Of a stretch of 64,000 nt of DNA, positions 36,638 through 39,038 are shown piece after piece. Where the stretch lies: contig NZ_CP023540.1 in NCBI RefSeq assembly GCF_003692615.1, positions 124,001-188,000 of the forward strand, in the 5' to 3' direction. The position numbers were made by a program, and so were the translations under genes. How positions within the stretch are numbered: position 1 is the stretch's first letter; each line of letters starts with the position of its first letter. A model generated the notes under the pieces. It searched no databases and had not been told where the DNA came from. It saw only the letters and a program-made list of their open reading frames with translations. This stretch comes from Chryseobacterium sp. 6424. Its GTDB lineage: Bacteria; Bacteroidota; Bacteroidia; Flavobacteriales; Weeksellaceae.

Positions 36638-37987
36638 TTATAACTGATTCATGGTATGGCTCATCATATTTGCATCAATATTCACCTGTAGTCCCATGGC
36701 GATCTTCATACCCAACTCGATATTGGCTCTGAAAAAATGACATAACTGGCGGTTGATGATTGAGTGTTTTTCGGGGCCACTCACCTGTTTCATAGATTTT
36801 ATAATGTTTTCCACTAATATGGCGCGTGTTTCATCGGTAAGCGCTTTGGTGTAAAATAGGCCGGGTTGGGTGTAATGATCGTCCTCATGGTCATAACTGG
36901 TGAAAGTAGTTAACGCAGCATGTGAGATTTCGCTGGCGAAATATGATGGTTGTATGTAAGGATTTCTGTTGACCTGTAGTTGTTCTGCGTGCAGGCCGGT
37001 GCGGTTCTGGTGGGCATCTGTATAAGCGAAAATACGCGTTTGTAGCATCTTATCCGGTGAAAATCCGATACCCGGAACAATCGTGCCCGGTGAAAAAGTA
37101 GCTTGTTCTACATGAGAGAAATAATCCTCGGGGATTTTATTCAGTTCAAGATCGCCCACTTCGATGAGCGGGAAATCATCTTGCAGCCAAACCTTGGTGA
37201 CATCAAAGGGGTTCCAGCGATATCCATTGGCCTCTTCCATGGTCATTATTTGTATAAACAGGGTCCATCTGGGATAATTCGCGGTATCAACAGCATGTAC
37301 CAGGTCTTGCTGGGCAAAGTCTGTTTTATCAACTTCAGCACCGGTAAAATTTTTGGTCCCTTGCTTTGGTTTAAAATGGAATTTAACCCAAAAGCGTTCA
37401 CCTGCAGCATTTATAAAGGCATAAGTGTGGGTGCCGTAACCATTCATGTGGCGATAACCAAAGGGAATCCCGCGATCCGATGAATTTATGAGCAGTTGAT
37501 GGAGCGATTCTGGATGGGTGCTGTAGAAGTTCCAACGTGCGGTTTCGCTTTTAAGGTTTGTGCGAGGATCACGGCTGTGCGACTGCATGAAGGCCGCGAA
37601 GTTTGAAGGTTCTTTTACATAAAAAACTGGGCTGCTGCTGCCTACCAAATCCCAATTGCCTTCTTCTGTATAAAATTTCAGGGAGAAACCGCGGATGTCG
37701 CGTTCGGTATCAGCGCTGCCTTTTTCTGCCAACATGGTAGAGAAACGTGCGAATATTTTGGTTTCTTTCCCTATTTCAGAAAAGAGTTTGGCGCTTGTAT
37801 ATTTCTTTAGGTCCTGGGTTACGGTAAATTTGCCGTAAGCACCGCTGCCTTTGGTACTCAGGTAACGCCCGGGAGACTTTTTTTGTATCTGTTTCACGAG
37901 GTGGTTTTGCATATATGCCTGATGTAGCGGCTGGTTATTGGGTGCGTCAGTAGGATTTATAGGGGTTTTGAATTGGTTATGATCCAT
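36638..37987 (-). CDS. catalase-like heme protein lacking the distal His and Asn
   Basis: A 449-aa member of the monofunctional catalase fold (GNWDLVGSSSPVFYV, SRDPRTNLKSETARWNFYS, SDRGIPFGYRHMNGYG). The proximal heme ligand region is intact: Arg318 and Tyr322 in RIFAYTDAH. The catalytic distal His, normally in RVVHAKGAGAYG, is Ser44 (RYLSTKGSGAYG), and the distal Asn, normally GNNTP, is Ser117/118 (GSSSP). The N-terminal arm is also divergent. It may bind heme but should be a poor catalase. The start is ATG 37987; the frame extends to a TTG at 38008 inside the promoter. Divergent from oxyR. Confidence 0.88.
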   Translation of the reverse strand: MDHNQFKTPINPTDAPNNQPLHQAYMQNHLVKQIQKKSPGRYLSTKGSGAYGKFTVTQDLKKYTSAKLFSEIGKETKIFARFSTMLAEKGSADTERDIRGFSLKFYTEEGNWDLVGSSSPVFYVKEPSNFAAFMQSHSRDPRTNLKSETARWNFYSTHPESLHQLLINSSDRGIPFGYRHMNGYGTHTYAFINAAGERFWVKFHFKPKQGTKNFTGAEVDKTDFAQQDLVHAVDTANYPRWTLFIQIMTMEEANGYRWNPFDVTKVWLQDDFPLIEVGDLELNKIPEDYFSHVEQATFSPGTIVPGIGFSPDKMLQTRIFAYTDAHQNRTGLHAEQLQVNRNPYIQPSYFASEISHAALTTFTSYDHEDDHYTQPGLFYTKALTDETRAILVENIIKSMKQVSGPEKHSIINRQLCHFFRANIELGMKIAMGLQVNIDANMMSHTMNQL

Positions 37988-38005: not shown

Positions 38006-38013
38006 CAAATTTA
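38006..38013 (-). promoter_or_regulatory. -7 promoter box (TAAATTTG) of the catalase-like gene
   Basis: Exact TAnnTTTG match, 18 bases before ATG 37987. No TTG at the right distance upstream, which could mean that an activator such as the adjacent OxyR is required. Confidence 0.55.
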
Positions 38014-38040: not shown

Positions 38041-38073
38041 TTGGATTTAAAATAGATAAAACACTTAAATTTG
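38041..38073 (+). promoter_or_regulatory. promoter of oxyR (TTG-N22-TAAATTTG)
   Basis: TTG at 38041-38043, a 22-base spacer and TAAATTTG at 38066-38073, with a 20-base leader to the oxyR ATG. It is divergent from the catalase-like promoter, leaving a ~27-base region between them for a shared operator. Confidence 0.65.
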
Positions 38074-38093: not shown

Positions 38094-39038
38094 ATGAATA
38101 TTCAGCAATTAGAATATCTTATCGCGGTGGATAAGTATAAGCATTTCGGCAAGGCCGCCCAATCGTGTTTCATTACGCAGCCTACGCTGAGCGCGATGAT
38201 ACAGAAGTTCGAGGATGAACTTGATGTGAAGGTGTTCGACCGCACCACACACCCAATTCGTACCACTGATGTAGGTATTCAGTTGATTGAGAAGGCGCGC
38301 CAGGTGATAGATGCTGTAAATGATCTGAAGAACCAAGCCAGCTTGCTGAATAACGTACTGGCAGGAAAACTTAATTTAGGCATCATTCCTACGACTTCAA
38401 GTTATATTTTGCCGGAAGAGATCTTCTCTTTCCTTCAGGAGAATACCAAAATCGAACTGAGCGTAAAGGAAATGACTACCGATAACATCATTAAGGCGCT
38501 GAAATCGGGGGAACTGGACGCCGGGATCATCTCTACGCCTTACGATGCGGCTTCAGAGTTTTATCAGCAGTTTCTGTTTAATGAAGAGTTGATGATTTAC
38601 TCTTCCGAAAAAGTCTCTAAAGATACTTTTGTACTACCGGAGGATGTTGACAGCACGAAAGTGTGGCTTTTAGAGGAAGGTAACTGCCTGCGTACCCAGT
38701 TTGAAAACATCTGTATGCTGAAGGAAAATTCGCTAAAACCTAAAAACCTCGATTTCTTGGCTTCTAACATCAATACCTTGATACAAATGGTGGACAAGGT
38801 AGGGGGACTTACCATCATCCCGGAGTTGGCCGTTCCGCAGCTTTCAGCCCAGCAGAAGGAAAAGATAATGCGTTTCCGGAAGCCTTTTCCGTTCCGCGAG
38901 ATCAGCATGATTTACTATAAGCCAACTTACAAGCAGAAAATCCTGGATGAAATGGCCGCTTCTATTAAAAAATCCCTCAAAGGAAAACTTAATTACGATA
39001 AAAGCCCGGAAGATTACACAGGGGTAAAACCGCAGTAG
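38094..39038 (+). CDS. oxyR: OxyR-type LysR-family peroxide regulator
   Basis: A 314-aa LysR-type regulator. The N-terminal winged helix is MNIQQLEYLIAVDKYKHFGK followed by CFITQPTLSAMIQKFEDEL. The effector domain carries GNCLRTQFENIC with Cys198 and Cys207, the same spacing as the redox pair C199/C208 of E. coli OxyR. It should activate peroxide-defence genes upon disulfide formation. The adjacent divergent gene is catalase-like, which fits, although that protein lacks catalytic residues. Confidence 0.92.
   Translation: MNIQQLEYLIAVDKYKHFGKAAQSCFITQPTLSAMIQKFEDELDVKVFDRTTHPIRTTDVGIQLIEKARQVIDAVNDLKNQASLLNNVLAGKLNLGIIPTTSSYILPEEIFSFLQENTKIELSVKEMTTDNIIKALKSGELDAGIISTPYDAASEFYQQFLFNEELMIYSSEKVSKDTFVLPEDVDSTKVWLLEEGNCLRTQFENICMLKENSLKPKNLDFLASNINTLIQMVDKVGGLTIIPELAVPQLSAQQKEKIMRFRKPFPFREISMIYYKPTYKQKILDEMAASIKKSLKGKLNYDKSPEDYTGVKPQ

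Follow-up and report, generated by a model that had tools for sequence, protein, structure and literature searches.

Why would a bacterium keep, next to the gene of its peroxide regulator, a catalase that lacks the residues of the distal active site? The question arises from a window of 64,000 nucleotides of Chryseobacterium sp. 6424 (contig NZ_CP023540.1, positions 124,001 to 188,000; 'the window' is this whole stretch), in which a gene divergent from oxyR encodes a protein of the catalase fold without the distal histidine and asparagine. We take the family of this genome to be Weeksellaceae. Chryseobacterium is likewise placed in that family in the available part of a published study (PMC7660247). 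The gene is the katA orthologue of what we take to be a Kaistella genome and not a separate family, and the account that we favour, with slightly better than even confidence, is that its product is catalatically dead or nearly so, is predicted to bind heme and has been kept for another role. Its sequence makes the protein a catalase orthologue, but its active site falls outside the definition of a catalase.

The distal histidine is regarded as essential in catalase. Aligned with solved catalases, the window protein reads R41-Y-L-S44-T-K-G where the canonical segment is RxxHxKG, and V-G-S117-S118 where it is VGNN. Set against a clade-3 KatA, it has Ser44 for the essential distal His and Ser117 for the distal Asn, a changed channel Val, and, judged on lengths, no N-terminal arm that could hook into a full-length wrapping loop, while the proximal Tyr, its Arg partner and the three propionate Arg are all present (Tyr322, Arg318, Arg41, Arg81 and Arg329). 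A sequence-only reading of this DNA had named Ser44, Ser117/118 and the retained Arg318/Tyr322 pair, and the coding sequence (CDS) and the alignment bear it out. The features of the gene are as follows.

36638..37987, minus strand: katA-orthologous CDS of 449 amino acids, catalase fold without distal His and Asn; ATG at 37987, stop at 36638.
37868..37987, minus strand: shortened N-terminal arm, residues 1-40; the canonical TxxxGxPxxxHxDSQTxGxRGPVLLQD is gone.
37865..37867, minus strand: codon of Arg41, a heme propionate Arg.
37856..37858, minus strand: codon of Ser44, replacing the essential distal His (alignment).
37745..37747, minus strand: codon of Arg81, a heme propionate Arg.
37733..37735, minus strand: codon of Met85, replacing the main-channel Val.
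37634..37639, minus strand: codons of Ser117-Ser118, replacing Asn-Asn, the first being the distal Asn (alignment).
37034..37036, minus strand: codon of Arg318.
37022..37024, minus strand: codon of Tyr322, the proximal heme ligand.
37001..37003, minus strand: codon of Arg329, a heme propionate Arg.
36890..36967, minus strand: truncated wrapping-domain loop, residues 341-366 (alignment and segment lengths).

In the numbering of bovine liver catalase (BLC), we take Arg41 to be R72, Arg81 to be R112, Met85 to be V116, Arg318 to be R354, Tyr322 to be Y358 and Arg329 to be R365. The catalase fold itself is beyond doubt, with Pfam matches of 444 bits to PF00199 and 51 bits to PF06628; the NCBIfam HPII model matches only below threshold, at 288 bits against a cut-off of 1102. 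Ahead of the distal position the N-terminal arm has 43 residues, compared to 53-59 in 32 canonical relatives, and the remodelling of this arm had also been seen in the sequence-only reading. That reading left unremarked a second cut, in the segment from the proximal Tyr to a conserved TQ, which spans 53 residues here and 86-88 in the canonical relatives. The arm-loop architecture of the catalase tetramer is treated in the available part of PMC9687031. An assembly or sequencing error as the source of these residues was rejected, independent assemblies being concordant: it is very unlikely because P0002, which comes from another source and is 98% identical, has the same residues, and other assemblies show a replacement of that His at the same locus.

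The pattern of change and retention was followed in 15 proteins without the distal His (His-less proteins; from 12 genomes, plus P0003-P0005) and the 32 canonical ones. The distal His position is occupied by N in five of the 15, Y in four, S and F in two each, and G and A in one each; the first Asn of the distal pair is retained in 7/15; and the channel Val (V116 in bovine numbering) is changed in 14/15, mostly to larger residues (M, F or L in 12 of these 14). R41, R81, S83, R318, Y322 and R329, that is the three propionate Arg, the Arg-Tyr pair and the equivalent of bovine Ser114, are unchanged in every one. All 15 keep 75 of the 222 columns that are invariant in the canonical set, and six given columns would all fall within these 75 by chance with a probability of 0.0013, a descriptive figure, as the six were picked from the known structure after earlier alignments had shown their invariance. 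The segment from the proximal Tyr to TQ, 86-88 residues long in 32/32 canonical proteins, measures 52-68 in 14/15 His-less ones, and the arm in those 14 measures 35-53; G013, G018 and G019 keep a 53-residue arm with a changed sequence. The remaining protein, the KatA of G324 (L168:7225-8712), has Asn for the distal His and His for the Lys two residues on. It may represent an early step of the conversion, because its loop, channel Val and Asn pair are still canonical.

Could such a protein work as a catalase with another residue as acid-base catalyst? The intact heme-side residues, Asp97 and Phe122 would allow it, and a His has been gained at the position of window residue 86, beside the channel Val, in 3/15 His-less proteins (L026, L024 and P0005, all with His-to-Asn) and 0/32 canonical ones. 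Residue 328, six residues past the proximal Tyr, is the only column with His gained in most His-less rows (10/15, compared to 1/32 canonical). Against this, the window protein has Leu at residue 86 and Asn at 328, and a scan of all columns against the 32 canonical proteins gave no His consistently gained across the 15, on which ground a hidden replacement His was rejected. Engineered mutants at the same position are also described as inactive. E. coli HPII H128N is called an 'inactive variant' in the available part of PMC9687031, and PDB entry 3hb6, a solved structure that aligned to the window model, bears the title 'Inactive mutant H54F of Proteus mirabilis catalase'; window residue 44 faces its position 54 in the sequence alignment, the structural alignment starting at 42 versus 49, where the model is unreliable. 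These precedents cover N and F, which are also natural replacements, and none was found for S, Y, G or A; they are, moreover, laboratory mutants of otherwise intact enzymes, whereas the natural His-less proteins have diverged throughout.

The phenotype of Bergeyella cardium points the same way. Its genome QYCZ (L053/L146) has a single PF00199 match, a KatA with His-to-Tyr, and a profile search gave no PF00141 (KatG-type) or PF05067 (Mn-catalase) match in it; strain HPQL is catalase-negative according to the available part of PMC7017618. Bergeyella porcorum QD2021 is reported as not producing catalase in the accessible text of PMC11181579, and C. lacus, which has a second, canonical catalase besides the His-less one, is described as catalase-positive in that of PMC7064467. 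A working catalase is very improbable. With the inactive H-to-N and H-to-F mutants, the lack of a substitute His and the catalase-negative B. cardium, although of another strain, the expectation of the sequence-only reading that the window protein should not be an efficient catalase gains indirect support.

The place of the gene in the genome decides what it descends from. Its divergent neighbour and the promoter elements between them are these.

38094..39038, plus strand: oxyR, LysR-type peroxide regulator with C-x8-C, divergent from the catalase-like gene across a 106 bp gap.
38006..38013, minus strand: TAAATTTG, Bacteroidota-type -7 promoter element upstream of the catalase-like gene.
38066..38073, plus strand: TAAATTTG, Bacteroidota-type -7 promoter element upstream of oxyR.

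When the window was compared with 19 regions of the same genus (5 His-less, 14 canonical) and one of the same family, all 19 Kaistella regions shared its order of genes: rluA-like (pseudouridine synthase), nudix, xerD, dCMP deaminase, enoyl-CoA hydratase, katA, divergent oxyR and metK. This identity of gene order with the katA locus of congeners is the reason for calling the gene a katA orthologue. Among 36 Kaistella genomes searched, the window's own included, six have a His-less KatA, 29 a canonical one (residues read), and one (G004, 99% complete) has nothing matching the window catalase at E <= 0.001. In 29/29 canonical congeners katA lies 87-123 bp from a divergent oxyR, 15 of them having been placed by the katA-oxyR pair only and the other 14 by wider gene order. 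The divergence shows in the catalase and not in metK: relative to the KatA of G010, identity is 86-91% for 13 other canonical proteins and 54-60% for the five His-less ones, whereas metK is 85-91% identical to the window's metK in both groups alike. The exact octamer TAAATTTG, which we take to be the Bacteroidota -7 element, stands upstream of katA in 11/12 His-less and 28/30 canonical intergenic regions, and the C-x8-C of OxyR was found in 41/43 scanned proteins, the misses being G322 (an over-extended frame start shifts the slice) and BP8.2 (contig end). A separate old family was rejected, as the nearest relatives beyond four metagenomic ones are, where named, KatA of Kaistella or Chryseobacterium and the gene order is orthologous; so was a paralogue acquired beside katA, as the sole catalase distal segment in the 12 His-less stretches (4.5 to 64 kb) is the His-less one. 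The position beside oxyR, to which the sequence-only reading had drawn attention, is correct, but it is no evidence of a new sensor function, since the katA-oxyR locus is genus-wide. The heme sensor, peroxygenase-like enzyme or heme store which that reading suggested are guesses, for which the protein shows the heme-side residues.

How widespread is the loss? At the katA locus, twelve or more genomes of the family have S, N, Y, F, G or A instead of the distal His, as do metagenomic relatives. When 320 family genomes were searched with the window protein (E <= 1e-140), 10 matched, all His-less on reading, and two more genomes, BP8.2 (= G272) and G324, came by other routes; the 12 are a lower bound, as most of the 320 are unread. 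Among the 143 matches listed in two protein searches, including the window's own, 134 have His, eight have S, N or Y, and one is off pattern. There is no clade as such that shares both Ser substitutions, as the sequence-only reading had envisaged. Of the proteins whose residues were read, the window protein, P0002 and P0003 are the only ones with Ser at the first Asn position as well as at the His position, which in other relatives is taken by N, Y, F, G or A. Beyond the family, DNA of one genome per species from 84,980 species was scanned for the catalase distal segment with a codon not starting in C at the His position, a pattern blind to Gln, Pro, C-starting Leu or Arg codons, atypical flanks and records close to the window's own genome. 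It returned 68 stretches (69 frames), of which 10 were catalase-like, seven from Kaistella, Chryseobacterium or Bergeyella and three from Clostridia, so that natural loss of the distal His is rare in the species scanned, with 7 of the 10 in one family. Searches of the open-access PMC literature yielded no description of a catalase that naturally lacks the distal His in this way.

The three Clostridia frames of the catalase fold are L108 (Lachnospiraceae RGIG4959), L084 (Blautia An249) and L099/L128 (Oscillospiraceae SIG530, the two pieces lying on different contigs). Like the window protein they are without the distal His (F, F and G, respectively), but they are far more remote, and the proximal Tyr was not found by eye in the pieces read, its position being Cys in L108, not located in L084 and Met in L099/L128.

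Whether the His was lost once or several times depends on the tree consulted. On a tree of ten neighbour genes (42 rows with 11/12 His-less genomes; BP8.2 and the out-of-family G039 excluded) the distal-His trait needs at least five changes; on the katA tree (47 rows, trait columns excluded) it needs two, and there it is long branches that are joined, with a warning from the program that such joins may be false. Several His-less proteins have branches of 0.3-1.1 changes per site on that tree, and BP8.2 one of 3.0. For vertical placement, approximately unbiased (AU) tests returned p values of 0.075, 0.062 and 0.032, the third weakly rejecting G322 with its genus mates. Placed singly among canonical katA, the G013/G018/G019 group joined its sisters of the neighbour-gene tree. 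G322 and the C. lacus pair both came out next to G323, which is the genus mate of G322; for the C. lacus pair this is at odds with the neighbour-gene position. The window's six-row group landed in a mixed group; when just its two slowest rows were placed, they joined G025/G021. The placement of B. cardium had no resolution. These placements favour separate origins of the G013/G018/G019 group and of G322, and we lean towards repeated loss of the distal His at one locus; a single origin followed by recombination at the katA locus stays in contention as the alternative.

The main rival explanation, which we consider unlikely, is that katA became redundant, with other catalases present, that selection for activity lapsed and the distal site drifted, and that the gene is on its way to being lost. 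The inventory of catalases speaks for it. The window genome (2.59 Mb, single contig) encodes three PF00199 proteins, namely the window's and frames of 512 and 725 residues which both retain the distal His, and also a frame of 766 residues that matches PF00141 twice, as KatG does; the profile search gave no Mn-catalase match in it. In the 11 His-less genomes besides B. cardium every other catalase read keeps its His (two per genome in the six Kaistella and one per genome in the remaining five), so at least one other His-bearing catalase is present in 11/12. Another clade-3 and an HPII-type catalase occur together in 6/6 His-less Kaistella compared to 16/29 canonical ones (one-sided Fisher p = 0.046, uncorrected, on lists compiled by hand); either of the two is present in 6/6 and 28/29, respectively. 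Slow decay would also fit the distal residues, which differ by lineage, and the congener G004, which lacks any match. B. cardium is less easily accommodated, as it keeps the frame without a match to another catalase of the three families searched. As a side observation, the KatG-type frame with two peroxidase domains was seen in 2/12 His-less genomes (G000:C1:1389773-1391629, the window's own, and G322:C1:1716507-1718375).

Selection bears on both explanations. By our own Nei-Gojobori script, pairwise dN/dS of His-less katA is 0.222 for G018/G019 (dS 0.06) and 0.132 for G257/G258 (dS 0.17), two values that rest on few changes and are the only unsaturated ones of six pairs, while canonical katA gives 0.014-0.045 in 13/14 pairs (the remaining one is saturated). 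For G018/G019 and G257/G258, oxyR and metK are at 0.02-0.05; the YjjG-like gene (0.105 and 0.085) and enoyl-CoA hydratase (0.106 and 0.273, the last with its frame cut by a contig end) are also raised, so katA stands out less against these neighbours. Constraint on His-less katA is thus relaxed several-fold, as decay would have it, yet it persists, with dN/dS below 1. No internal stops were reported in the genome copies of His-less katA despite their long branches, the promoter octamer is retained and the six heme-side residues are kept in 15/15, all of which decay would hardly predict; the Clostridia His-less catalases, in which the proximal Tyr was not found either, are perhaps what decay looks like.

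A third possibility is a new enzyme, i.e. a peroxidase, peroxygenase or hydroperoxide-transforming heme protein with a main channel altered for other substrates. The catalase-related allene oxide synthase (cAOS) shares with His-less KatA the catalase core and a Tyr-ligated heme, and is no H2O2 scavenger. However, it keeps distal Thr66, His67 and Asn137 (available part of PMC5617202), where the window protein has L43-S44 and S117. A new enzyme with a shared active site would, moreover, need a new distal residue conserved across the His-less lineages, and there is none; the V116 replacements are mostly larger; and the genes flanking the locus are ordinary housekeeping ones, without a substrate pathway. 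Chanoclavine synthase EasC (PDB 9jdb/9jdc) is a fungal and remote relative, about 30% identical. Because the distal residue varies, a new enzyme ranks below both a role independent of the distal site and slow decay, and we think it decidedly improbable.

We thus return to the reading of a KatA without catalatic activity that would bind heme and be retained for another role, and several points weigh against it. Heme binding and any function of the window protein are read from sequence only, the AlphaFold model being too weak at the heme site (pLDDT <50 at residues 20-45 and 323-332). The lineage-by-lineage variation of the distal residue fits drift as well as it fits a role independent of that site, and selection is relaxed. 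The phenotype (strain HPQL) and the genome (QYCZ) of B. cardium come from different strains, and two papers on this species disagree on its oxidase result.

The mechanism that we propose begins with heme b, which would be held by Tyr322, polarised by Arg318 and clamped by Arg41, Arg81 and Arg329. With the distal acid-base residue gone, peroxide cleavage would be too slow for a catalatic cycle, and the distal site would thereby be free to drift; the shortened arm and loop would reduce arm exchange in the tetramer. The clearing of peroxide would fall to the two other, His-keeping catalases both in the window genome and in the five Kaistella relatives that have the His-less form (in the window genome also to the KatG-type protein). 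The least certain step, and a guess, is a second KatA function that needs bound heme and the barrel and not peroxide chemistry, e.g. heme binding or buffering. Several lineages would then have undergone a parallel conversion from enzyme to heme-binding pseudoenzyme, in which the distal His was dropped, and usually also the channel Val and the interlocking loop.

For genome annotation the His-less proteins are a trap, as the Pfam catalase model matches them far above its cut-off, and a genome-based call of 'catalase-positive' is therefore probably wrong for species such as B. cardium. For the family, loss in several related lineages with the heme-holding parts kept suggests that the protein has a second job besides peroxide destruction. 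Tentatively, and with confidence short of even, we propose for KatA in the Weeksellaceae a second role that depends on heme and has nothing to do with clearing peroxide. On this view the catalytic half of the protein has been shed in five or more lineages, and its heme-binding half has persisted at the ancestral locus beside oxyR. Repeated loss of the His, with the heme-side residues and the frame intact, would make these bacteria a natural experiment on whether catalases have any task besides destroying peroxide.
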